From Sphaerisporangium fuscum (GTDB taxonomy: Bacteria > Actinomycetota > Actinomycetes > Streptosporangiales > Streptosporangiaceae), in the NCBI RefSeq assembly GCF_018531465.1, contig NZ_JAHDTF010000036.1, positions 1 to 64,000 of the forward strand: a DNA stretch of 64,000 bases, given 5' to 3'. Below are positions 43,630 through 57,232 of the stretch, one piece after another; within the stretch, counting starts at the first letter, position 1; every line of letters starts with the position of its first letter. The notes under the pieces were generated by a model. That model worked only from the letters and a program-made list of their open reading frames with translations. It was not told the DNA's origin and ran no database searches. A program made the translations under genes and the position numbers.

Positions 43630-44978
43630 TCCCAGGCGGGACGGTCCTCCACGGTCGCGCGCCCGCGGGCGCGGCGCCGTACGGCGGCCACCAGCAGCGT
43701 CACCAGCGCGGACACGACGAACGCGGCCAGCGCGGCGTTCATCCAGGGCTGCCGCTCGAACCCGATGGCCGTGCGGACGGCCGTCCACCGGTCGTCCCAC
43801 CAGGCCACCGTCGGCGTCGCCGTGACGATCCAGTACGCCGCGAAGCCCAGCACCCAGGGCACGAGCATGCCCCACCGCGAAGGGGCGTGCCGCGAGGTGT
43901 CCCACCGCGCCGCACCGCCGAGCAGGAAGTACTCCACGGCGAGGACGGCGAACATCGGCACGAAGACCGCCCCGATCACGCCGAGGAACGCGCCGTAGGA
44001 CTGGACGTCGACGAACAGCGCGATGACCGTGGTGAGCACACCCACCCCGAGCGAGAAGACGCGCCGATCGATCTTCGGCAGGAGGTTCTGCAGGGACATC
44101 GTGGTGGAGTACACGTTCGCGAACGACTGGTCCGCCTCCCGCAGCACCAGGATGCCGAAGAACAGAACGCCGAGCGGAACGGCCACGAACGCGTCCCACA
44201 CCCGGTCGGGATCGTTTCTCACCAGCGCCAGCGCCAGGATGCCGAGGAGCAGGCAGGCGACCTGCGCGACGGTGTACCCGCTGACGACCCCGGTGAAGGC
44301 CGCGCGGCTCGACCTCGAGTGCCGGGCGAAGTCGGCCGCCATCGGCACCCAGGAGACCGAGAGCGCGATGACGTAGTCGACGGCCGAGGTGAAGCCGTCC
44401 CAGTTCCCGCCGCCCAGGCTCGGCCCCTCGCGCAGCAGGGCGACGGCCAGCCACACCATCGCGACCACCACGCCCACCGTCACGAACCGCCGCAGCAGCC
44501 TGATCGCGCCGAGCGGCCGGATCGTCAGGGCGATGGTGATCAGCCCCGCCACCAGCACCCACACCTGGTACGGCACGCTCTTGCCGAAGATCGCCTGCGC
44601 GCCGGTGGCGATCACCCACAGCTCGAAGGCACCCCAGCCGAGCATCTGGACGATGTTCAGCACCGTCGGGACGTACGACAGCCGCGCCCCGAACAGGCCG
44701 CGCAGCAGCACCATCGCGGGGGCGCCGGTCTGCGACCCGGGTATGGCAGCGAGGCCGACCATCACGGTGCCGATCAGGCTGCCCACCACGGCCGCGAGGA
44801 CGGCGGCGGTCAGCGTCAGCGGCGTGCGGCCCAGCGGGTTGAGGAGGTACAGGGCGCCGGAGAAGCCGAGAAGGCTCACCCCGAGGTTGGCCCAGAACGC
44901 GCCCTGGTCGAGCACCCCGAGGGTCTTCGGAGGAGCCTCGTCGAGCGTCAGAGGGACTTCGTCGGCGACATACGCCAT
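43626..44978 (-). CDS. cytX: NCS1-family transporter, probable hydroxymethylpyrimidine permease
   Basis: 450 residues with 12 membrane segments. NCS1 (CodB/CytX) features: NLGVSLLGFSGALYL in helix 1 and VPMAADFARHSRSSR near 218. The TPP riboswitch directly upstream identifies it as the CytX group that imports thiamine precursor HMP rather than cytosine. The start lies 7 bases after GGGAG, which is itself the 3' end of the riboswitch. Confidence 0.88.
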   Translation of the reverse strand: MAYVADEVPLTLDEAPPKTLGVLDQGAFWANLGVSLLGFSGALYLLNPLGRTPLTLTAAVLAAVVGSLIGTVMVGLAAIPGSQTGAPAMVLLRGLFGARLSYVPTVLNIVQMLGWGAFELWVIATGAQAIFGKSVPYQVWVLVAGLITIALTIRPLGAIRLLRRFVTVGVVVAMVWLAVALLREGPSLGGGNWDGFTSAVDYVIALSVSWVPMAADFARHSRSSRAAFTGVVSGYTVAQVACLLLGILALALVRNDPDRVWDAFVAVPLGVLFFGILVLREADQSFANVYSTTMSLQNLLPKIDRRVFSLGVGVLTTVIALFVDVQSYGAFLGVIGAVFVPMFAVLAVEYFLLGGAARWDTSRHAPSRWGMLVPWVLGFAAYWIVTATPTVAWWDDRWTAVRTAIGFERQPWMNAALAAFVVSALVTLLVAAVRRRARGRATVEDRPAWD

Positions 44979-44984
44979 CGCACG

Positions 44985-45076
44985 CTCCCTACGCCGGCAT
45001 TACCCGGACAGGTTCAGGCGGTCGGCAGCGGCTGTGCTGCCCTCTCAGCCCGGCGCCCCGAGCTCCCGCGTCCAGC
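44985..45076 (-). promoter_or_regulatory. TPP riboswitch (thi box)
   Basis: On the minus strand the conserved blocks appear in order: GGGGCGCC, GGCTGAGAGGG, GACCGCCTGAACCTG, CCGGGTAATGCCGGCGTAGGGA. The terminal block contains the ribosome binding site GGGAG of cytX, and GAGC within it can pair with GCTC at the 5' side, so TPP binding should hide the site and stop translation. Confidence 0.95.
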
Positions 45077-45125
45077 TTGTGCAGTTTGCGCCCTCATCTT
45101 GCCTCATCAAAGGCCTTCTGACCAC

Positions 45126-45392: not shown

Positions 45393-45522
45393 GTTCGGAA
45401 CCTCCAATGCCCGTGTTTCTTCCGCGAGGTTCCGAACCTCAACCAGACAGTCACGCAGACAAATCGGGCAGTTCCAAGCACGAGTTCTGCCCCCTCTCAG
45501 CTATTCGCGCTGGTCAGATGCC
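45393..45522 (+). promoter_or_regulatory. Leader of CRISPR array 1
   Basis: The 446 bases between the riboswitch and the first repeat hold no gene. Nearest the array is a leader with GTTCGGAACCTC (45393-45404) and its exact inverse GAGGTTCCGAAC (45426-45437), then AACCAGACAG and AAATCGGGCAG blocks. The same blocks recur in the same order before array 2. Confidence 0.7.
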
Positions 45523-46585
45523 GTTCCACTCCGGTCTCCGTGCCGGACCTCATTGCTGGTCTGGCTCTACTGGTGTTGGTTCTAAGACCCTTGCCGGGTT
45601 CCACTCCGGTCTCCGTGCCGGACCTCATTGCTGGACAAGGGCAGTCGTGAACTGGAAATTGCCGGTCAGGTTCCACTCCGGTCTCCGTGCCGGACCTCAT
45701 TGCTGGGCCTACACGCCCTGGCATGCCGCGTGGTTCGCCCGGGTTCCACTCCGGTCTCCGTGCCGGACCTCATTGCTGGGCCGACAACCCCATCAGCGAC
45801 GCCTACGGCATCCCGCAGGTTCCACTCCCGTCTTCGCGCCGGACCTCATTGCTGGTGACCGGTATCCGCAGGCTCGCTCGCGCCCCTACCGGTTCCACCC
45901 AGTCTCCGTGCCCGACCTCATTGCTGGACCGAGCTGTACGAAATCGTCGCCTGGGACGGCGCACCGTTCCACTCCGGTCTCCGCGCCGGACCTCATTGCT
46001 GGGTTCCGCCGGCGCCGGAGGACCCCGACAACCCGACTTTTACTCCGGCCTCCGCGCCGGACCTCATTGCTGGGCCCAGGTCGGGTCATAGATCGCCCAG
46101 CCGGTACGGCTTTCACTCCGGCCTCCGCGCCGGACCTCATTGCTGGGTCACCCGCGCCCAGGCCGCCGCGCTGAAGGGCATGTTCCACTCCGGCCTCCGC
46201 GCCGGACCTCATTGCTGGCGCAACCCTCACCGCGACCCCCTGATGCGCGACATGTTTCACTCCGGCCTCCGCGCCGGACCTCATTGCTGGTACTGGGGCC
46301 ACGGCGGCGGCTACCCGTTCCAGGGCTTTCACTCCGGCCTCCGCGCCGGACCTCATTGCTGGATGGTTGCCTCTCCGTGGAGGACTGGGCCGCCGGACCT
46401 TTTACTCTGGCGTCTGCGCCGGACCTCATTGCTGGTCGATGCTGAACTCGCATGCGATCGTCGTCTCGGCGGCACTGCCACTCCGGTCTCCGTGCGGGAC
46501 CTCATTGCTGGCTCGTCATCGACGGCCCGAGGGCCGCTGAAGGTGACAGTTTCACTCCGGCCTCCGCGCCTGTCCTCATTACGGT
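45523..46585 (+). CRISPR. CRISPR array 1 (15 repeats, 14 spacers)
   Basis: Repeats of 37 bases begin at 45523, 45598, 45670, 45743, 45819, 45892 (36 bases), 45966, 46037, 46110, 46182, 46254, 46326, 46399, 46475 and 46549. Leader-side form: GTTCCACTCC, then GGTCTCCGTGCCGG, then ACCTCATTGCTGG; trailer-side form: a CTTTCACTCC start and GGCCTCCGCGCCGG centre. The centre forms a CCGG...CCGG stem. Spacers are 34-39 bases. The last repeat is degenerate (CTCATTACGG), which places the leader on the left. Several spacers read as open codons, as expected for phage genes. Confidence 0.95.
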
Positions 46586-46827
46586 TCAGGTCACACAGAT
46601 CTGGATCGTCGACCCGGTATTGATATTGATCAGCTTGGGAGAACAACTGCCTTCGAGCGATCAGTCCCTCTATCAACCTGCCGTGAACTGTCGGCTCCGT
46701 TATGTAAAGTCAGCCTCCACTCGTGTTCGGGCTTGGGGACCCGAGTACGAGCAAACAAGCGAATCAGGGTCAGGCCAGTGCGTACGCGTCTAGATGACTG
46801 GCCCGAGGCAGGCGGAGGTCGGAGAAC
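46586..46827. other. Region between array 1 and cas operon
   Basis: 242 bases without a gene; it presumably holds the cas promoter. A TATGTAAAGT stretch near 46700 is A/T-rich enough for a -10 box, but I cannot place a -35 with certainty. Confidence 0.4.
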
Positions 46828-47979
46828 GTGGTGGAGCACATCGTCAAACGGCTGCTGGAGGCCGTCAGCGAGGATCGTGCGGATGCGGGGATCAGCATAG
46901 AGAGCGTCTACCGGCCTGCAGCCGGAGACAAGGTCATGCCTCCCTCCTTCCCTGGTAACAACGGGCCGTACCTGATGGAGACGAGATGGGTGGGCGGTGA
47001 GGCGAGGAAGGTCGTAGTCCTGGACCAAGTGCCCTCTCAAGCCAACCGTGTCGAGGAAGCGTTACTCGCAGCCCGAGACGCCGGCCGCATCGAGCTTCCA
47101 CTGTTCGAGATGATGGCGGAGACCAGCCGCGGGCCGCTTCGCCTCACCTCGCTGGAATTCCCGCACCGTTACGCCGACGCTTACCTACGAGACAGCATGG
47201 TGGAAGGCGTGCGTTTCGACCGCAGCGAACCGGGCCAGCGTCTTCGACAGGTCAGCGCCTTGGACGTTCGTCCTCTGTACGAGCGCGATCCTGGCTCCCT
47301 GCTGTTCGGGGCCTGGGACTCGCATCGGAGGGGCCGTTGGCCGAAGTTCGCACGAATCTACTCCTCCTCCATCGTGGGCCTGGACCCGCAGGAGGGGCAG
47401 CGTAAGGCGACCCGAGTCGATCCGCTCAACCTCACAGGAGCGATAGACGACAAGGCCAAATCGGAGGCCGACTGGGAGTACGTGGCCGTCGGCGACAAGA
47501 AGGAGAAGAAGCAAGGCCAGCGGCTGAGCGAGATCGGGCACGGCAATATCGCCCCAGGAGACGCTCACGGCGGTGTTTCGATCACCGAGGCTCGACGGTC
47601 GGGCTGGATCTCGCTGGCGGCCATCGAACGGCTGCGGTTCGGTGATGCTTCACCAGAAGCCACGCAGTTGGCACGGGCGACCCTGGTCGCGTTGGCGTTG
47701 GCCGGAGATCGGCTGGCTTTCGGCCGCCCGTCCGTCTGGCTTCGGTCAGGCTGCGACCTCGTGCGGTCGGTTGAGGTTCTGGCCTTCGAGCAGGACGGCG
47801 ATACCAGAGAGCAGTTCAGCGTGTCGGCTGCTGATGCCGTCGAGGTGTTCCACGAGCTGCGCGATCGAGCGGCAGCGGCAGGTGTGTCGATGGCTACCGA
47901 TGCCATTCGGCTGGTGCCGATGCCGTCGCTGGCCAAGGCCATCGAGTTCTCTACGGCCAAGGCTGCGGCGGAGGAGTAG
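46828..47979 (+). CDS. csb1: Csb1 (Cas7-type, type I-G)
   Basis: 383 residues from GTG 46828 behind GGAG. Matches the Csb1/GSU0053 family: the opening with RLLEAVSEDRADAGISIESVYRPAAGDKVMPPSFPG, YLMETRWVGGEARKVVVLDQVPSQANRVEEAL and FPHRYADAYLRDS segments are characteristic. This is the backbone subunit that coats the crRNA in the type I-G (former I-U) Cascade. First gene of a four-gene operon; csb2 begins 6 bases after it. Confidence 0.92.
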   Translation: MVEHIVKRLLEAVSEDRADAGISIESVYRPAAGDKVMPPSFPGNNGPYLMETRWVGGEARKVVVLDQVPSQANRVEEALLAARDAGRIELPLFEMMAETSRGPLRLTSLEFPHRYADAYLRDSMVEGVRFDRSEPGQRLRQVSALDVRPLYERDPGSLLFGAWDSHRRGRWPKFARIYSSSIVGLDPQEGQRKATRVDPLNLTGAIDDKAKSEADWEYVAVGDKKEKKQGQRLSEIGHGNIAPGDAHGGVSITEARRSGWISLAAIERLRFGDASPEATQLARATLVALALAGDRLAFGRPSVWLRSGCDLVRSVEVLAFEQDGDTREQFSVSAADAVEVFHELRDRAAAAGVSMATDAIRLVPMPSLAKAIEFSTAKAAAEE

Positions 47980-47984
47980 GCCGA

Positions 47985-49370
47985 ATGCCGGTGGCAATCA
48001 CGGTCCGCCTCCGGACGGGCCGCTATGAGGCGGCAGGGATGCGCCCCTCCCATGTGGAATGGCCTCCACACCCGGCCCGGCTGTTCTGCGCCCTGGTCGC
48101 CTCCGCGGTGGATGACGACGACTGGGCGGTACTGCGCTGGCTGGAGACAGCAGGTGTCCCCGAGGTGTGGGCATGCCAAGCAGCTGGCCAGGAGGTCATG
48201 GACGGCTATGTGGTGACCAACGCGATCGAGCAGAAGGGCGGCAGCCAGTTCTGGCCGGGACGTACCAACGGGCCTCGATCGCGGGTCTCGGCGGTCCCCC
48301 AAGTGCCAGCATTCACGGTCGTGTGGGCACACGTCGCCCCCGACGCAGACGCCCTGGCACAACTACGCAGGCTTGCCCGGCGCGTGCCGTATGTGGGGCG
48401 CGCGACCTCGACCGCGATTCTCAGCGTGGCGCCCGAGATTGGCCTGCCGGGGCCGGAATGGACGCGCTATGTCCCTTCACGTATCGGGGAGCACGCGCAC
48501 ACAGAGCTGCGGATTCCTTACCCGGGCTATACCGACCAGCTCCAGCGGGCCTATGCCGACGGCCAGCGCGCATGGGCCGTAGCCCGCAGCATCCCCTACA
48601 CCGTCGCCGGTAGCACGGCGAAGCCTGCAGCGGCAGCGGGGCCGTTCTCCGATCTGGTGGTCTTCCGCTTCGAGCCTCGTGTTGTACGGCCGGCCGGGGA
48701 CTCACTCCTGACGTTGACCGCCAGGCTCCGTCAAGCAGTCATTCAGCGCATCGGCACCGACGTCCCGGCCGAGGTCTCGGGTCACGGAGCCGATGATCGC
48801 AAGCACTTGGGCTACCTTGCCCTACTCAACTCCGGACACGACGACGCGGACGGTCACGTGCTCGGCGTAGCGCTTGCAGTTCCTCGTGAGATGGCCCCTC
48901 ACGCTCTCGATCGACTTTTAGCGCGGACTGTGGACGATCCGATCCGCCGGTTGACTATCCGCCGGGACCAGACGATCGCTTTGGATCACGATCCCTATCT
49001 GACGTCTCCGCTGCGACTGACACCCGAATGGTGGATGGCAGCTCCTCAGGGGAGCCGTAGTTGGGTGACTGTCGCCCCCTTGATGCTCGACCGCTATCCC
49101 TCACGGAAGCAGGACGCACATTCCCTGGTGTTCCAGAGCCTGACCACGGCTGGTTACCCAGAGCCTGAAGAGGTTGAGATCTCGCCGGCGGCATTGACGC
49201 AGGGAGCCGTAAGCAGACCGCGCCAGGGCACGATCCCACAAGGGCGGCCGGTTCGTCCGATGGTGCACGCGCGTGTGACGTTCGCCCAGCCGGTCATCGG
49301 TCCTGTGCTGGCAGGGTCGATGCGCTATCTCGGCCTGGGGCTGTTCATGCCGGACAGGAGCAACTCATGA
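47985..49370 (+). CDS. csb2: Csb2 (Cas5-Cas6 fusion, type I-G)
   Basis: 461 residues. N-terminal Cas5-like domain (VEWPPHPARLFCALVASA near 24-42) and C-terminal Cas6-like domain ending in the glycine-rich loop GPVLAGSMRYLGLGLF near 440-456. The Cas6 part cuts pre-crRNA in the repeat; the Cas5 part holds the 5' handle. It must deal with two repeat families here. Its stop overlaps the cas3 ATG by four bases. Confidence 0.92.
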   Translation: MPVAITVRLRTGRYEAAGMRPSHVEWPPHPARLFCALVASAVDDDDWAVLRWLETAGVPEVWACQAAGQEVMDGYVVTNAIEQKGGSQFWPGRTNGPRSRVSAVPQVPAFTVVWAHVAPDADALAQLRRLARRVPYVGRATSTAILSVAPEIGLPGPEWTRYVPSRIGEHAHTELRIPYPGYTDQLQRAYADGQRAWAVARSIPYTVAGSTAKPAAAAGPFSDLVVFRFEPRVVRPAGDSLLTLTARLRQAVIQRIGTDVPAEVSGHGADDRKHLGYLALLNSGHDDADGHVLGVALAVPREMAPHALDRLLARTVDDPIRRLTIRRDQTIALDHDPYLTSPLRLTPEWWMAAPQGSRSWVTVAPLMLDRYPSRKQDAHSLVFQSLTTAGYPEPEEVEISPAALTQGAVSRPRQGTIPQGRPVRPMVHARVTFAQPVIGPVLAGSMRYLGLGLFMPDRSNS

Positions 49371-52234
49371 ACGAGTTGACCGCAGCGGACTTCCCCGCCT
49401 TCCTCTGGGAAGTCCACGGGCGAAAGCCGTTCCCGTGGCAGCAGCGTCTGGTCGAGGGCATGCTGACGGACGGGCGCTGGCCCGACGTCCTGGACGTCCC
49501 AACCGGTCTAGGCAAGACCACAATGATCGACATTGCGGTCTTCGTGGCCGCCGCAGGTGTCGCGTGTGCTCGCCGCAGGATGTTTTTCGTGGTGGACCGC
49601 CGCCTGGTCGTCGACGAGGCGTACGACCACGCCAGCGCACTGGCCCAGGCCCTCGCCGAGCCACCCGGGCCAATCAGCGCCCACGTTGCGCAAGCACTGC
49701 GGCAGAAGGGCGACGACGGCCCGGCGCTCCAGGTCACCCGGATGCGCGGTGGGGTGACATGGTCCTGGCGGTGGCTGGAACGTCCCGACCGGTATGCAGT
49801 GGTCGTGGGGACGGTCGATCAGATCGGCAGTCGCCTGCTCTTCCGCGGCTACCAGGTCGGCCAGCATCTGCGTCCCATAGACGCGGCTTTGACCGGCACT
49901 GACAGTTTGATCGTGATCGATGAGGCTCACTTGGCGGAGCCTCTGGTCAAAACGATCCGATCTACCCTCACCGTGGACTGCCCGCAGATCAGGGTGGGAG
50001 CCCAGCCAACGCTGATCACTATGTCGGCGACCACGCCTCCCGCCGAGGGGCAGAGGGTGCATCGAGCCGATACCGACGAGCAGGACCAAGTAGCCCGCGA
50101 ACGGTTGGCCGCTCCCCGCCGGCTTCACCTGCTCGCGCCAGAGGTCACCAAGAAGAACGCCGATGTTGTGGTGGCTACAACGATGGCCACCTGGGCGAAA
50201 GCTCTTGCTGGTGATGCCCAATCAGGACGTGTCGTCGCCGTCGTCTGCAACTCGGTCGGCCGAGCGCGTGCCGTACATACCCTGTTGCAGAGTACGGACG
50301 CCGATGTGGAACTGTTGATCGGCCGCAGCCGGCCGATCGACCGCGAGTACCTGCTCAAGCGCTGCTATCCGCGGATGAAGGTCGGCCGCAGCCGCACCAG
50401 CGGAAGGCCGTTGATCGTGTGTGCCACCCAGACGATCGAAGTCGGCGCCAACATCGACGCTGATCACTTGGTAACCGAATCGGCGTCGCTAGCGGCGCTG
50501 ATCCAACGGTTAGGGCGGCTCAACCGGCTCGGCAAGCTGATGCGGGCCGATGCCGTGGTGATCCATGACGGGAGTGTCGGGCCAGACGACCCGGTGTACG
50601 GCCCGGCCCGGCAGGCCACCTGGCAGTGGCTCAGCACGCTCACAACGCCGCTGGAGTCCGACCACTTGGGTGAAGGCCTCGACGTCTCCCCACTGGCCTT
50701 ACGCGCGCTCCTAGAGCCCGTCGCCCCAGCTGCGCGGCAGACAATGCGCGAGCCGTTGCCGTACATGCCCGTTCTGTTCGGCCAGGTACTCGATGCTTGG
50801 GTGCGAACATCCCCCATTCCCCATCCTGACCCACCTGTCGCTCCTTACCTGCATGGCATTGACCGGGGAAGTGCAGATGTCGCAGTGGTCTGGCGATCAG
50901 GGCTGGCCGGGGCGAATCCACAGGGATGGCCAGCGACGGTCATGGAGGTGCCGCCGTCCACGGAAGAGGCCGTCGAGGTGTCTCTGCACGCCGTACGGCA
51001 GTGGCTGTCTGAGGACCAGCCCACCGGGCCCTTGGGGGATGTGGAAGGCACGCCTGAGGGCGAGGGCGTGCCGAGCCATACCTGGCGGCTGGAGCATGTG
51101 GTGCGCTACAGAGGGAGGGACGATGCCACACTGATCAGCCCTGGTGAGATCCGGCCGGGTGACCTGATCGTGGTGCCCTGCGAACAGGGTGGCTGTGACG
51201 AGTACGGCTGGAATCCCGCCTCCACTTACCCCGTGCTGGATGTCGCCGATCTCGCGTATCGCGGCGGTCGGCCTGTAGTGCGGCTTGGCCCTGCAGTCCT
51301 CGACGCCGCGCACCGCGAATCTCCCTCCATTGGACAAGCATTACGAGACCTGATCGACCAGACACGTGCTGAACTTGCCGACGACACTCCGCCCGCCGTC
51401 GGCGTCTACCGCAAGGAGCTCCAGCGCATCATCGACCTGCTGCCTTCCGATGACCTGGACGATCCGCTGCCACTGACCCGCAACCTTCGTGCGCTGACCC
51501 GCTGCGCGATCACGTTCACGGAGAAGGCACCCTACGTCGCGCTGTTGACCGCCAAGGGCGGGGCATGGGTGGGGGACGCCGACGCCTGGAGTTCGTCCGT
51601 GACTGGGCAGGGCAAACAGATGTCCTTGCTGGCCCATGAGCATGCCGTCGCCAACAGGGCCGAGGAGTTCGCGCTCAACCTCGGTTTGGAGCCCGTGCTG
51701 ATCAACAGCGTACGAGCCGCAGCACTTTGGCATGACGAAGGCAAGCGGGATCCCCGCTTCCAGGCGATGCTGCACGGACGCCCTCCTCGCGTCCTGCGCA
51801 GCGGCACTCACCGAGAGCTACTAGCCAAGTCCGGGCTCGACCCCGCTGACCGTGCCGCCCACCGCCGGGCGAAGCTCATCTCTGGTTACCCGGACGGGAT
51901 GCGGCACGAGGCTCTGTCCGCACGCATCACCCGGCTGTATCTGGAGATCGGCTCCTACGATGTCGACCCCGACCTCGTGATCCATCTCGTCGCCGCCCAC
52001 CACGGCCGCAGCCGCCCCCTGCTGCCGCCCGTCACCGATCCCGCCCCCGAAACCGTCCAGCTCGACGAGTTGCCGGCAACCCTCGGTACCGAGGAAACCC
52101 TCGATTGGGACGCTCCTCGCAGGTTCGCCGAGCTCAATCAGCGTTACGGCCGCTGGGGACTTGCCCTGCTGGAGTGCATCGTGCGATTGGCCGACATCTG
52201 GTGCTCTGAGCGTGAAGAGGAGGCCACGCTGTGA
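49367..52234 (+). CDS. cas3: Cas3 helicase-nuclease with C-terminal HD domain
   Basis: 955 residues. SF2 helicase first: Walker A VPTGLGKTTM near 45-55, Walker B VIDEAHL near 185, motif III ITMSATTPP near 220 and motif VI QRLGRLNRLGK near 382. HD nuclease second: LLAHEHAVANRAEEFA near 755, WHDEGKRDPRF near 788 and VAAHHGRSRP near 876. This order (helicase then HD) is that of type I-G Cas3. Unwinds and cuts target DNA after Cascade binding. ATGA overlap with csb2, GTGA overlap with csb3. Confidence 0.95.
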   Translation: MNELTAADFPAFLWEVHGRKPFPWQQRLVEGMLTDGRWPDVLDVPTGLGKTTMIDIAVFVAAAGVACARRRMFFVVDRRLVVDEAYDHASALAQALAEPPGPISAHVAQALRQKGDDGPALQVTRMRGGVTWSWRWLERPDRYAVVVGTVDQIGSRLLFRGYQVGQHLRPIDAALTGTDSLIVIDEAHLAEPLVKTIRSTLTVDCPQIRVGAQPTLITMSATTPPAEGQRVHRADTDEQDQVARERLAAPRRLHLLAPEVTKKNADVVVATTMATWAKALAGDAQSGRVVAVVCNSVGRARAVHTLLQSTDADVELLIGRSRPIDREYLLKRCYPRMKVGRSRTSGRPLIVCATQTIEVGANIDADHLVTESASLAALIQRLGRLNRLGKLMRADAVVIHDGSVGPDDPVYGPARQATWQWLSTLTTPLESDHLGEGLDVSPLALRALLEPVAPAARQTMREPLPYMPVLFGQVLDAWVRTSPIPHPDPPVAPYLHGIDRGSADVAVVWRSGLAGANPQGWPATVMEVPPSTEEAVEVSLHAVRQWLSEDQPTGPLGDVEGTPEGEGVPSHTWRLEHVVRYRGRDDATLISPGEIRPGDLIVVPCEQGGCDEYGWNPASTYPVLDVADLAYRGGRPVVRLGPAVLDAAHRESPSIGQALRDLIDQTRAELADDTPPAVGVYRKELQRIIDLLPSDDLDDPLPLTRNLRALTRCAITFTEKAPYVALLTAKGGAWVGDADAWSSSVTGQGKQMSLLAHEHAVANRAEEFALNLGLEPVLINSVRAAALWHDEGKRDPRFQAMLHGRPPRVLRSGTHRELLAKSGLDPADRAAHRRAKLISGYPDGMRHEALSARITRLYLEIGSYDVDPDLVIHLVAAHHGRSRPLLPPVTDPAPETVQLDELPATLGTEETLDWDAPRRFAELNQRYGRWGLALLECIVRLADIWCSEREEEATL

Positions 52235-53208
52235 ACGTGGTCGAACTGCCCGCCCTGGATGGCCGTGACCCGCTGGGGTTCCTCGCTGCCCTAGGCCTGC
52301 TGCGACTCTTGGGAGAAGAGGTACGGCTCTGTTTCTCTGACGTCACTGGTTGCGCCCAGATCCATACCACCCTCCGGGACGCCGATGAGATCGCCGGCGC
52401 GTTGCAAAGCATCGTCGAGGCCATCGACGAGGATGCGGTGCTTCCCGTGGTGGGGCCGAAGTTCCCGCTGCGGCCGGCTGCCCCGAGTCGAACACCCGGC
52501 GCGGAGAAGAGTGATGAGAGCGACCCGATGCGTGTGTCGCGCACGGCCTACGGCGAGCAACTCCATGACCGGGTAGAGGCATTGGGAAGCAGGGCCGTCA
52601 AGTGGTTGTCGTTCCTGGTGACAGACCTGGCCGTCGATCGGGCTGGACGTGCGGCGCTCACGCCATACATGGCTCCGGCCGGCAAGCAGACCGTCTGGAC
52701 CTTCTTTCGCAAACCTCTGGAGATGGTCCGCGAAGAACCCTCCCAGTTGGTAGAAGCCTTGACGGGATGGCGCCGTGTGGACGGCTTCACCGGCGAATAC
52801 CTCGACCATCGAGCCCTACGCCTCGCGGCCGATCACCCATCGGGCAAATCCATCCCCGCTGGAGTACCCGGTGCCACCTGGTTGGCTACCCAGGCGCTGC
52901 CCTTACTGCGCATCACCGGAGACGGCCGAAACGTCTCCGCCACGCTCTGGCACCGCCACAACCGCCGCACGGTGATGGTGTGGCCGCTGTGGAAACCCGC
53001 CCTCGACATCCACGCCGTCCAAGCACTGCTCGACCACCCGTACCTACGGCCTGCGCCCGCGCGACAGAGGAGGGCCATCACCGTCGAACGCCGACGCCTT
53101 CGCCCCCTGGGGGTCTTCGAGGTCTGTGGAGCAGAACGTCAGCCGATAGAGGGCGGCAAGAGCGCTGGGGTCCTTGCCCCGATAGTCATCTCTAATGAGC
53201 CAAACTGA
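52231..53208 (+). CDS. csb3: Csb3 (Cas8-type large subunit, type I-G)
   Basis: 325 residues from GTG 52231, overlapping cas3 by four bases. Opens with LPALDGRDPLGFLAALGLLRLL, the start typical of Csb3/Csx17 large subunits; the length fits Csb3 (Cas8u2) and not the longer Csx17. Central basic segment and GATWLATQALPLLRITG follow. It should recognise the PAM. Last gene of the operon; array 2 leader follows directly. No cas1, cas2 or cas4 comes after it. Confidence 0.82.
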   Translation: MNVVELPALDGRDPLGFLAALGLLRLLGEEVRLCFSDVTGCAQIHTTLRDADEIAGALQSIVEAIDEDAVLPVVGPKFPLRPAAPSRTPGAEKSDESDPMRVSRTAYGEQLHDRVEALGSRAVKWLSFLVTDLAVDRAGRAALTPYMAPAGKQTVWTFFRKPLEMVREEPSQLVEALTGWRRVDGFTGEYLDHRALRLAADHPSGKSIPAGVPGATWLATQALPLLRITGDGRNVSATLWHRHNRRTVMVWPLWKPALDIHAVQALLDHPYLRPAPARQRRAITVERRRLRPLGVFEVCGAERQPIEGGKSAGVLAPIVISNEPN

Positions 53209-53418
53209 TCACTTATCCGTCCTTCCAGAACGCTTGTTCCTTGATAACAGCACAACGGACACTGATCTTCATGCATCCTGGCGCGTCAGGTTCGGAACCT
53301 CAAGCACACACCCTTTCTCTGGGAGGCTCCTAACCCCAATCAGGCCACTCCTGCCACAAACCGGACAGCTCAGATGCGCCTTCACAAGCACTGTCAGTTA
53401 TTTCCCCTGTTCGGAGGC
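53209..53418 (+). promoter_or_regulatory. Leader of CRISPR array 2
   Basis: Carries AGGTTCGGAACCT (53288-53300), then GAGGCTCCTAACC, CAATCAGGCCA and ACAAACCGGACAG blocks, which match those of the array 1 leader in order and spacing. No gene. Confidence 0.7.
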
Positions 53419-54034
53419 GCTTCATCCCAGCTCCACCGCTGGGCCTCATTGCGGGAGCGAGTACCACGAAGGGATCATCGCCACCACCGGCTTCATCCCA
53501 GCTCCACCGCTGGGCCTCATTGCGGGCTCACCTACGCGTACAACGGCCCGCCCGTACAGTCCGGCTTCATCCCAGCTCCACCACTGGGCCTCATTGCGGG
53601 TCCGCTTGCGTGATCGAGAGGCCGTAGTGGGTCTTGGCTTCATCCCAGCTCCACCGCTGGGCCTCATTGCGGCTCAAGTCCGATCCGGCATGCTGCCGCG
53701 ACCTGCACGCTTCATCCCAGCTTCACCGCTGGGCCTCATTGCGGGGGGCTCGACGGTTTCCACGGCGTCTCCATGGCGAACGGCTTCATCCCAGCTTCAC
53801 CTGGGCCTCATTGCGGGGAGAAGTTCGTGGGGGGCCTCGTGGCCATCGGCCTGCTTCACCCCAGCTTCACCGCTGGGCCTCATTGCGGGTTGCCGCAGGC
53901 GTTGGACCACTGCGGGCACTTCGGCTTCATCCCAGCTGCACGACTGGGCCTCATTGCGGGTCGTATGACTCACGCTCGGGCGCCATGGGCCGCTGCTGCT
54001 CTATCCCGGTTCCGCCGTCGGGCCTCATTACGGC
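53419..54034 (+). CRISPR. CRISPR array 2 (9 repeats, 8 spacers)
   Basis: 37-base repeats begin at 53419, 53490, 53564, 53637, 53709, 53783 (35 bases, two-base deletion), 53853, 53924 and 53998 (degenerate). Form: GCTTCATC, CCAGCTCCACCGCTGG, GCCTCATTGCGGG. The hairpin stem is CCCAGC/GCTGGG, different from array 1, while the last twelve bases are nearly the same. Spacers are 34-37 bases. The degenerate repeat is at the right, so the leader is on the left here too. Confidence 0.95.
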
Positions 54035-54125
54035 TCCGGTCTAGAGCTGGTGTTTCGATCACGGCCAGGCCCCATTCCGGCGTAGCTGCCGGTGCTTCCA
54101 GCGGGGCCTGGTCGGCTCTGCACCG

Positions 54126-55649
54126 TCAACGCGTCGGATAGTTCCACTGCTGGCCTGTTCCCTTGTATTGCGAGACTGGTATCGGCTCAACTCCTGCGCG
54201 CATCCGAACACGGTAGAGCTGGCCGTACAGGTGGTCGATCTCGTGTCCTACCAATCTCGCCATTCCCTCCTCAAAGAGAGTGATTCTGGCGTTTCCGTCG
54301 ATGTCCTGATGTTCGACCTCAATGGAGAGCGGACGGGGGACCATACCTCGTACATCGAAAAAACTGAGGCATCCCTCGTACTGCTCATCAGTCTCCGACG
54401 ACTCATTGATGACGCGAGGATTGAGAAGGGTGACTATCTCCCCGGTTGGGGTACGCACGAGCGCCGCAGCCCTTCCGATCCCGATCTGAGGGGCGGCAAG
54501 CCCCATTCCCTTGGCGAAAGAATGGACTTGAGAAACCCGCTCCAGGTTGGAGACGAGCTGGGCGACCACCCTGCGGGCGTCCTCGGCCTCGGTCGGCAGG
54601 TCGAATGGACGAGCGGTCTCAGTCAGGATGGGGTCGCCCTCCTGCACGATGCCGATCGAGCGCATTTGCTCACTAGGGCTCAGTGTCTCCATCGGTGACG
54701 ACTCCTCTTTGGGACTCTTGAACTTCCATTCGATGCGATATCGCGCATGCAACGGAGGATCTTCGGTTGACCACGTGAAATAGACCCTACCGTCGCGCGT
54801 CTCACGGTATATAGGAGTCTTGAACGGAGAAGCTTCCGCTGTCATCGAGGTCTCGATGCCCCAAACGACAGGTTGTAGGCCTTCCGGGAAGTCCAAGGCC
54901 AAGCTCAGGCGTTGCGTGGGAAGGCGGATAGCGCGCTGCCACCAGGGCCCCCACTTGTCCGCGCTCACCGTGTATACGTAGTCGATCCAGGTGCTCTCAC
55001 CCGGATAAAGAGGAAACCGCCCATCAGCGTTTTCGAAGAGCAACCATACTTCTTTGAACGCATCCCGGTCATGCTGGACGCGCCACGTCATCGGCTCGTC
55101 ACCGCAGACAGCCGATAGACCGATCTCTTCCCAGGTAAGAGGGAACTTCCGGTAAAGCTGATTCGAGCGCTCAGGATCACCCGGGTACCGATCGACGGCT
55201 ATCCGGATTAGGTACCGCGTTACAGGTTCAGCACCGACATTGCGCAACTGTCTCCGGATGCGTGTTTTGAAGAGCCCGCTGTCGAACGACAACTCTGCGC
55301 GTTCATGCTCAACGACAAGCGCGGCGCTAGGCTTGGACTGTGGGTCATCTACAGGAACCGGCGTGTCATGCTGGTGCCCCTTGGCCGCATTCTCGCCGAG
55401 CGTCTGATTAACGTCCTTCCATCGACGGATGATCGCATTCCCTGCACGCAAATGCCTGTCCGCATTCTCAGCGAATTCTCGGCTCGGCACGAGCGATCCC
55501 CGCTCGACTTTGCTGATGTAGGAGGGAGTGTATCCGACCAGCCTCGCCAACGCCTTTTGCGATAAGCCTGTAACTTCCCGCCAGTGCCTAAGTTCAGCAA
55601 TGAACGCGCTTAGGGCCTGGGGTGTTTCCTCATCCTCGTCACGCTTCAC
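54126..55649 (-). CDS. HTH (XRE)-peptide deformylase fusion protein
   Basis: 507 residues. Cro/C1-type HTH at about 12-72 (TGLSQKALARLVGYTPSYISKVERGSLVPSREF), a middle region of about 270 residues without recognised domain, rich in Trp and acidic residues, and a C-terminal peptide deformylase domain with all three motifs: GLAAPQIG at 383-390, EGCLS at 425-429 and HEIDH at 469-473. The metal ligands (Cys, His, His) and catalytic Glu are all present, so the enzyme part may be active. Housekeeping deformylases are about 170-200 residues without HTH. The gene lies between CRISPR array 2 and a mobile element. Confidence 0.85.
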   Translation of the reverse strand: MKRDEDEETPQALSAFIAELRHWREVTGLSQKALARLVGYTPSYISKVERGSLVPSREFAENADRHLRAGNAIIRRWKDVNQTLGENAAKGHQHDTPVPVDDPQSKPSAALVVEHERAELSFDSGLFKTRIRRQLRNVGAEPVTRYLIRIAVDRYPGDPERSNQLYRKFPLTWEEIGLSAVCGDEPMTWRVQHDRDAFKEVWLLFENADGRFPLYPGESTWIDYVYTVSADKWGPWWQRAIRLPTQRLSLALDFPEGLQPVVWGIETSMTAEASPFKTPIYRETRDGRVYFTWSTEDPPLHARYRIEWKFKSPKEESSPMETLSPSEQMRSIGIVQEGDPILTETARPFDLPTEAEDARRVVAQLVSNLERVSQVHSFAKGMGLAAPQIGIGRAAALVRTPTGEIVTLLNPRVINESSETDEQYEGCLSFFDVRGMVPRPLSIEVEHQDIDGNARITLFEEGMARLVGHEIDHLYGQLYRVRMRAGVEPIPVSQYKGTGQQWNYPTR

Positions 55650-55777
55650 GGCTTCTTGTCCTCAGGGGTGTGAATGGAATGAATGGAGGTTGATTCCAGA
55701 TCAACCTGACGGCAACCCTGGACCTCCGTGTCTCATGGTGGACGTGAACGAACTGCCACGACAGCTTCGACGAACCC

Positions 55778-56146
55778 TCACCCGTTTGACCGACTTCGGT
55801 CCTGCACCGCCTCCCGGTCTTCGAGGACAGCCAACCGTCGTTCAAGACCTCGCACGGCTTCCCCAAGCTCGTCCAGGCGTCGCGCAAGAACTTCGACGGC
55901 CGGTGCGGTCGAGGCGGTGTCTCGACCGCGAACGAACACTCCCTTGCCTTGCTGGCCGACGACCAGTCCCTCTCTGCGCAATTCGTTGAGAGCATCCCGA
56001 ACCACCGTGCTGGAAACGCCGTATCGCTCGCGCAGCTGGGTCATCGAGGGAAGCTGGGCACCTTCTGGCAAGGCTCCTCCCTCAATCTGTGACCGCAGGT
56101 CAGCTGCCACTTGTACGTAAGCGGGAGTCCCCGACATGGCCGTCAT
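55778..56146 (-). CDS. Short GntR-type regulator
   Basis: 122 residues from ATG 56146, with GAGGGAG 8 bases upstream. Only the GntR winged helix is present (about 5-72, LPSMTQLRERYGVSSTVVRDALNELRREGL), followed by a coiled coil (LARRLDELGEAVRGLERRLAVLED) and no ligand domain. This form is usual for repressors of actinomycete plasmids and AICEs. Divergent from the second element's operon; paired operators lie between. Confidence 0.88.
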   Translation of the reverse strand: MTAMSGTPAYVQVAADLRSQIEGGALPEGAQLPSMTQLRERYGVSSTVVRDALNELRREGLVVGQQGKGVFVRGRDTASTAPAVEVLARRLDELGEAVRGLERRLAVLEDREAVQDRSRSNG

Positions 56147-57007: not shown

Positions 57008-57232
57008 ATGACGACCGCGTTCGTCGTTACCAACGTCCCCGACGAGATTCAGCTGTACCGAATCCCCGACGCGATGAAGGTCCTGCGGCTGGGCCGCACC
57101 GCCATCTACGAGCTGATCCGCTCCGGCCGGCTGCGCTCGGTCCGCGAGGGCCGCGCCCGGCTCATCCCCGCTACCGCGATCCGCGACTACGTCGCACTGC
57201 TGGAGCGCGAGGCCCAGGAGGACGACCAGTGA
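57008..57232 (+). CDS. Excisionase-like HTH protein
   Basis: 74 residues from ATG 57008, behind GGAGG (spacing about 12). Helix-turn-helix of the excisionase/MerR type: YRIPDAMKVLRLGRTAIYELIRSGRLRSVREGRARLIPATAIRDYVALLERE. The same architecture as the xis of the first element, but no integrase follows, so here it may act as a DNA-binding regulator. Overlaps the next GTG by four bases. Confidence 0.8.
   Translation: MTTAFVVTNVPDEIQLYRIPDAMKVLRLGRTAIYELIRSGRLRSVREGRARLIPATAIRDYVALLEREAQEDDQ

Follow-up and report, generated by a model that had tools for sequence, protein, structure and literature searches.

Peptide deformylase (PDF) is known as a housekeeping enzyme of translation and as an antibiotic target. 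In enzyme-fused one-component regulators such as MocR/PdxR, BirA and PutA, a DNA-binding domain is joined to a complete enzyme fold through which a metabolite is read. None of these is known to use a deformylase. XRE regulators of the HTH_31 family in actinomycetes are usually partnered with DUF5753/DUF397 pairs. The N-terminal domain of M1 enzymes helps these to grip a peptide by its free N-terminus. Ribophorin I is no peptidase. Among mobile elements, the gene for KorSA, a GntR-family repressor, adjoins the regulator gene of the AICE pSAM2 (PMC8584621), and AICEs with tyrosine recombinases are reported to sit mostly in tRNA genes (PMC3218068). Inactivation of PDF by nitric oxide has been reported, with zinc mismetallation as one route (PMC7683392).

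The window analyzed here is a 64,000 nucleotide stretch of Sphaerisporangium fuscum (contig NZ_JAHDTF010000036.1, positions 1 to 64,000). It contains a 507 aa ORF on the minus strand (54126..55649) with a GTG start, predicted to encode a regulator composed of an XRE, an M1N-like and a deformylase part. The HTH_31 DNA-binding domain covers residues 18-73 (55431..55598, minus strand; Pfam E 1.9e-14) and scored 54.2 bits against a Pfam gathering score of 27. The PDF domain covers residues 334-484 (54198..54650, minus strand; Pfam Pep_deformylase E 1.3e-31) and scored 109.7 bits against a Pfam cut-off of 22.8, so that both matches lie above the curated cut-offs. In the middle region of about 260 residues between them the only Pfam match was a sub-threshold one to Dynein_AAA_lid (E 0.34). 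This layout agrees with the initial annotation, which had described an HTH with a complete deformylase site and an unassigned middle, and which had placed the gene correctly between CRISPR array 2 (about 53419-54050) and mobile element genes. The first of the latter encodes a GntR-type winged-HTH regulator of 122 aa (55778..56146, minus strand; Pfam GntR E 3.2e-19) which lies directly upstream of the fusion in the same direction.

A search of 341 genomes from the same GTDB family gave relatives of the fusion (E≤1e-30) in 46, its own genome included, and 438 were confirmed across a collection of named genomes. Based on these numbers the fusion is judged from sequence not to be a chance ORF. All recognizably taxon-named relatives among the best 80 of the 438 belonged to Actinomycetota. 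Ten other species of the same genus gave no match at E≤1e-15. Plasmid records matched in 180 cases, and in 14 of these the match covered 80% or more of the query (Streptomyces, Nocardia and Nonomuraea). Phage records matched in 134 cases, none over 80% of the query, and among the 20 phage matches listed the PDF part alone was covered. Eleven IMG/VR loci were 62-64% identical to the fusion. Some copies are broken or partial, for example with stops inside the match. A total of 135 loci was collected, of which 127 had a protein of at least 420 aa (shorter ones were dropped), and 110 rows remained once exact duplicates were removed. In the 10.1 Mb genome of the window itself (93 contigs) three other open frames were 33-36% identical to the PDF part, and eight further ones matched the HTH part alone. 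A title-level literature search returned no published account of such an HTH-deformylase fusion.

The fusion was compared to known deformylases. A PDB sequence search returned peptide deformylases (best E 4.3e-16), as did Foldseek (best 6jes, E 3.5e-12, TMt 0.78). All three PDF motifs were present on the minus strand: G-x-G-L-A-A-P-Q at residues 381-388 (within GMGLAAPQIG, residues 381-390, 54480..54509), E-G-C-L-S at 425-429 with the metal ligand C427 (54363..54377), and H-E-x-D-H at 469-473 (HEIDH, 54231..54245) with the ligands H469 and H473 and the catalytic E470. The fusion therefore shares with Def (PF01327) the fold, the three motifs, the metal ligands and the catalytic Glu. It differs from Def by the added HTH and beta domain, by the invariant F431 with F430 in front of it in 108 of 110 relatives, and by its scores. 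These were below the NCBIfam PDF cut-offs (TIGR00079, 83.8 against 103.95 bits), with the other listed models likewise under. On sequence grounds the fusion is thus taken to carry a PDF domain and is not classed as a housekeeping Def.

The loss of metal ligands among homologues which the initial annotation had considered was not seen, as the ligands were kept in 110 of 110 relatives. Identical in all 110 non-identical relatives were G381, G383, A385, Q388, E425, G426, C427, L428, S429, F431, R434, H469, E470, D472 and H473, in a set whose rows share kinship, so that counts across the family are not independent. The fetching of 80 genome loci by motif 1 and motif 2 patterns biases the count toward intact motifs 1 and 2. 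The 11 viral loci were fetched by a pattern of motif 1 and middle domain, which biases motif 1 there in the same way, and motif 3 played no part in fetching. In set A1, comprised of 36 relatives from plasmids and family genomes chosen without motif patterns, the PDF ligands and catalytic residues were invariant as well. Mean pairwise identity over the 110 relatives was 49% for the HTH, 62% for the middle domain and 63% for the PDF, so that conservation is stronger in the C-terminal half than in the DNA-binding part. Three stand-alone deformylases (loci L017, L077 and L078) were 55-63% identical to the PDF of the fusion; they have no HTH and no middle domain.

The full-length structural model had a pLDDT of 80 and a pTM of 0.45, and the single domains are therefore better known than their arrangement. 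Residues 104-320 predicted alone with AlphaFold2 gave a pLDDT of 88.4 and a pTM of 0.84. The middle domain (residues 111-310; 54720..55319, minus strand) was predicted to be beta-rich, and Foldseek matched it to the beta domain at the N-terminus of M1 aminopeptidases and to the like domain of ribophorin I/OST1 (best E 1.6e-7). VIA-align gave Z 15.5 to 6ezn (OST1; 3.0 A over 172 residues), 13.7 to 3kd4, 13.2 to LTA4H (1sqm) and 13.1 to PepN (4qhp). The likeness to M1 N-domains and ribophorin I over about 170 residues (Z 13-15.5) is not accompanied by a sequence match or by an M1 catalytic domain. Pfam gave no M1 N-domain match for the middle region at E≤1, and a PDB profile search of the region returned three weak matches, all to other proteins and none to an M1 N-domain. 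The region which the initial annotation had left for domain search and structure prediction is in this way assigned a predicted M1N/ribophorin I fold and no Pfam family. The middle domain is M1N-like in its modeled fold only, and a shared fold shows no function. By fold, both domains of the C-terminal half would sit near the handling of peptide N-termini, with the M1 link serving as a hint.

The middle domain was also searched alone. At order level 13 of 150 genomes had it, and at class level 23 of 394. A PDF was in frame or next door in 32 of the 36 matching loci, some of which overlap. The four exceptions were L202 (a fragment), L222 and L225 (one broken place) and L224 (HTH_31 and middle domain). 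The N-terminus was changeable. In Frankia L136 it is far diverged, with HTH_31 just below the cut-off, and L149 has no HTH match; both retain middle domain and PDF. The PDF was also separable, being a separate gene with retained site residues in Streptomyces cellulosae L011 and Nonomuraea L079, where it overlaps the first gene by 4 bp in the annotation table of the record and in our own gene calls. Taken together, the constant pairing, the changeable N-terminus and the separable PDF suggest that middle domain and PDF form a single module. The alternative, that the middle is a generic domain which regulators combine with many partners, was rejected within the searched genomes, given the PDF in 32 of 36 loci.

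The paralogue at L224:1045-2172 consists of HTH and middle domain with no PDF, and the same genome (G434) also holds the full fusion L220. Frankia loci have the diverged N-terminus with the module in a conserved place, which in L136 is upstream of an Rpf-like gene (cluster c22).

A conserved TGA-N7-TCA was found upstream of the family genes, with N8 in 14 rows and often with a further TCAY after it. In the window the predicted operator AGGTTGA-N7-TCAACCT (55687..55707) is a perfect palindrome located 38-58 nt upstream of the start codon of the fusion, between the GntR gene and the fusion. TGA-N7/8-TCA was present at -75 to -30 of the start codon in 65 of 109 family genes, one of the 110 being short of upstream DNA, and the pattern was picked after viewing these same upstream regions. 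Among other genes in the same loci it was present in 28 of 1,989, and in 17 of the 996 whose intergenic upstream DNA measures 75 nt or more. The first control count of 40 of 1,989 had allowed N6-N8; the figure of 28 applies to N7-N8 as seen in the family. Shuffled family upstream regions gave a mean of 1.7 sites and a maximum of 5, with N6 allowed too. By group, the site was present in 6 of 8 AICE-type, 11 of 12 phage-type and 10 of 10 'que' rows, in 13 of 16 and 8 of 17 rows of two Pseudonocardiaceae/Nocardia groups, and in 16 of 27 and 1 of 4 of others. It was absent from -75 to -30 in all 10 Frankia rows, in L162 and in all four members of the L092/L096/L097/L149 group. Altogether 44 of 109 members had no site at this position, and 12 of these had one elsewhere in -260 to +60, some by chance.

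The strict form TGA-N7-TCAYTCAY occurred at 36 places in 2.0 Mb, always on the sense strand of the family gene, and 32 of these were within 120 nt upstream of a family gene. The remaining four (L050, L055, L056 and L060) were near the start of the family gene, which fits mis-set start codons. Split or broken members retained the site (L011 at -61, L071 at -63 and L079 at -57) and the stand-alone PDFs L017, L077 and L078 had no upstream site. The site thus appears to track the HTH rather than the deformylase. The tracking is not perfect, as L092, L096 and L097 carry HTH_31 yet no such site. With the HTH_31 XRE regulators of actinomycetes the fusion shares the DNA-binding domain and a conserved predicted site near its own promoter; it differs from them in that an enzyme module replaces their usual partners.

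The window palindrome is the sole mismatch-free GGTTGA-N7-TCAACC in the 10.1 Mb genome, with five more places at one mismatch. Allowing up to three mismatches gave two matches in the window, where shuffling predicts 0.71, and only the perfect site and the conservation across the family are therefore counted. The second match (1703-1723, three mismatches) is outside the element. In looking for an operator at the early/transfer promoter of the element, only the site at the gene of the fusion itself was found. In a dyad search by clade the 'que', AICE, Kibdelosporangium and Frankia groups were above shuffles, and the actinomadura, phage, nocardia and mtcyth groups were not. The Kibdelosporangium dyad was dropped because it is inside a coding region, and the Frankia dyad because its rows are closely related.

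The neighborhoods of the relatives were not random, a possibility raised in the initial annotation. With the mobile groups set aside, 74 of 83 relatives were divergent from the next upstream gene, compared to 427 of 1,781 (24%) of the other genes in the same loci. This count leaves out the mobile clade, L092/L096/L097/L149 (one divergent, three codirectional) and two rows that have no gene upstream. Gene calls were made with our own hexamer gene finder, which missed the GntR gene of the window, and the mobile clade figure of 7 divergent and 13 in the same direction is unreliable for this reason. The distance from the predicted site to the start of the divergent gene had a median of 131 nt (range -29 to 453, 45 loci).

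The 74 divergent first genes fell into 19 BLAST clusters and 16 singletons, some of them small or doubtful ORFs. Pfam was run on 71 of the 74 proteins, three under 60 aa being left out. The matches included six Gfo/Idh/MocA, five QueC, five radical SAM, four methyltransferase, three D-Ala-D-Ala-ligase-like, two DegT and two QueD-like proteins, among others, and three PCMT proteins which possibly overlap the methyltransferase count. Divergent operons encoded, among others, Gfo/Idh-DegT-NUDIX, an unassigned protein with a CYTH protein, QueD-QueE-FolE on pFRL3, radical SAM/SPASM with creatininase and glycosyltransferase in Nocardia, and an ATP-grasp/PALP/M55 set. One Nocardia plasmid had a MazF-type toxin gene in the divergent position instead. 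A simple 'metabolic operon' picture is counted against by several observations. The largest first-gene cluster (c9, 11 rows) was a small protein of no family among the listed Pfam matches, 18 of the 74 divergent first genes were below 100 aa, and by our own spacing rule the divergent run was a single gene in 41 of 85 rows and at least two genes in 33 of 85.

The relationship of the window to its relatives was examined with a maximum-likelihood tree of the 110 rows (quick method, midpoint root). The window and eight rows formed a nine-row group (support 100), which was joined with 12 phage-type rows to give 21 rows (support 92). In the nine-row group the four rows examined in this respect, L047, L048, L049 and L087, are beside a GntR gene and/or clusters common to the element of the window. 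HK97-type capsid and tyrosine integrase genes were each found in 8 of the 11 viral contigs, so that most of these are prophages. The clade of the window is largely mobile, recurring in prophages and AICE-like elements. In most of the viral contigs the fusion gene is preceded by a small gene of the same orientation, a place taken in the window by the GntR gene. At L165:11482-12099 and L168:11488-11997 the fusion overlaps a downstream T5orf172-type gene, and this prophage gene may be in the same switch as the fusion.

A perfect 68-bp direct repeat encloses about 25.3 kb in the window contig, with the left att copy at 45004..45071 and the second copy at contig 70351-70418, beyond the window. The enclosed region holds Prim-Pol and tyrosine integrase genes and an HTH_17 gene (57008..57232, plus strand; Pfam E 2.4e-10), the product of which we take to be excisionase-like by name. 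From these genes and the general layout of AICEs the element is described as AICE-like. It resembles pSAM2, with its KorSA/Pra, in having a GntR gene beside element genes; the GntR protein of the window is of 122 aa, and no deformylase fusion is described for pSAM2 in the available part of PMC8584621. The two ends of the element are alike over about 195 bp (82%). The left att copy lies within a TPP riboswitch (44969-45079, minus strand; 58 bits against a cut-off of 54.3) which precedes a permease gene for cytosine/purines/thiamine. The element is inserted at this riboswitch and not at a tRNA gene, and the riboswitch at the left end is still above the cut-off. In the congener G010 the left flank is unbroken to about 45172 and is followed by 180 bp and then by the homologue of 71525 onward. 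G010 carries its own TPP riboswitch. By this alignment it is read as an empty site, one also lacking the phosphotransferase gene beside the right end of the element. In G008 and G003 the phosphotransferase gene region was present and the left flank was absent.

A type I-G CRISPR-Cas system (Cas7g, Cas5-6g, Cas3g and Cas8g) and both arrays are inside the att repeats (window 45515-54050). The arrays have 15 and about nine repeats. No further gene was called between them, and there is accordingly no cas1/cas2 among the gene calls there. Array 1 (window 45500-46600) had no megablast match among 72,556 plasmids. Relatives of the Cas proteins were found in 0 of 134 other loci surveyed (BLAST E≤1e-8 with coverage limits), in a survey that reached only 7-10 kb or less to each side in many loci and included some places twice. 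The CRISPR link was therefore rejected as the meaning of the neighborhood, and the fusion and CRISPR-Cas are fellow passengers on the element. PADLOC matches to the fusion were confined to residues 14-90, the HTH region, with none beyond. The defense or conflict function which the initial annotation had drawn from the CRISPR neighbor is not borne out by these results.

The favored reading, given a probability of about 0.5, is that the fusion is an autoregulated one-component regulator in which the deformylase half senses an N-formylated ligand and the HTH reads TGA-N7/8-TCA. It would resemble MocR/PdxR, BirA and PutA in having a DNA-binding domain and a complete enzyme fold. Computation shows the domains, the invariant active site, the integrity of the module, the conserved upstream site, the divergent placement and the mobile clade; DNA binding, catalysis, ligand, sign of regulation, divergent targets and element role are the steps we infer. 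The N-terminal HTH would bind the predicted operator some 50 nt ahead of the start codon of its own gene. For most relatives that are not mobile, this site falls in the region which the family gene has in common with a divergent gene or operon, and the latter would for that reason probably also be controlled. This control is deduced from position, as the site is near the family gene and always on its sense strand. An N-formylated ligand, with formyl-Met peptides or a formylated metabolite as the likeliest choice, would be bound jointly by the M1-aminopeptidase-N-like domain and the intact deformylase, and would probably lose its formyl group there. Ligand occupancy or turnover would then switch DNA binding. 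There would be one conserved input with many outputs: varied, often enzyme-coding neighbors in most lineages, and control of immunity or transfer of prophages and AICE-like elements in the clade of the window. A constant reader with varying outputs would point to a general cell signal (formyl-Met peptides) rather than to one product per pathway, and formylated peptides as the signal are the leading candidate mechanism.

Other explanations were weighed against this reading. The fusion could be a true protein deformylase held as an inducible back-up, with the HTH repressing its own gene until released by PDF inhibitors or lost housekeeping PDF activity, for example by actinonin, nitric oxide or zinc mismetallation. 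The predicted operator at the family's own promoter, the intact active site and the three other PDF-like open frames in the same genome would fit, as would the reported inactivation of PDF by nitric oxide, also via zinc mismetallation (PMC7683392). The back-up role leaves unexplained the 74 of 83 divergent neighbors, the aminopeptidase-like middle and the prophage location, and is considered unlikely. The deformylase might alternatively be catalytically idle in the cell and serve as a metal or redox sensor or a ligand-binding domain. Former enzyme domains are common in regulators, and L224 has no PDF altogether. E470 and Q388, however, equal the ligands in their invariance (110 of 110), which seems beyond the needs of binding alone and makes a purely non-catalytic sensor improbable.

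Still less probable is a tailoring enzyme which deformylates an intermediate of the neighboring pathway, with the HTH as a passenger. Several neighbors are biosynthetic enzymes, but one conserved enzyme would have to serve first genes of 19 BLAST clusters and 16 singletons, the gene is divergent and outside the operon, and the upstream site is conserved. A phage or element immunity regulator, acting in conflict as a defense protein for which formylated peptides would signal a phage takeover, is rated as a slim prospect. Prophage and AICE-like members do occur in the clade of the window, and CRISPR-Cas adjoins the fusion there. Against this, the Cas neighbor is unique to the window among the surveyed loci, the PADLOC matches of the fusion are in the HTH region only, and most other relatives are away from known defense genes: PADLOC on the 71 divergent neighbors gave nine matches, namely five QueC, three mad2 and one viperin-like.

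The autoregulated regulator with a formyl-sensing deformylase half can be extended, tentatively, to a new class of transcription factors in which a working deformylase senses N-formyl-Met peptides, and with them the state of translation and of the cell's own deformylase, and couples this to specialized metabolism and to the stay-or-leave decision of prophages and AICEs. If true, a widespread actinobacterial regulator family would give bacteria a direct route from the formylation state of peptides or metabolites to transcription. With the predicted operator and the promoters in hand, it can be asked if silent neighboring operons are switched on by actinonin or another deformylase ligand. They would likewise make testable a signal that may induce the prophages and integrative elements of actinomycetes.
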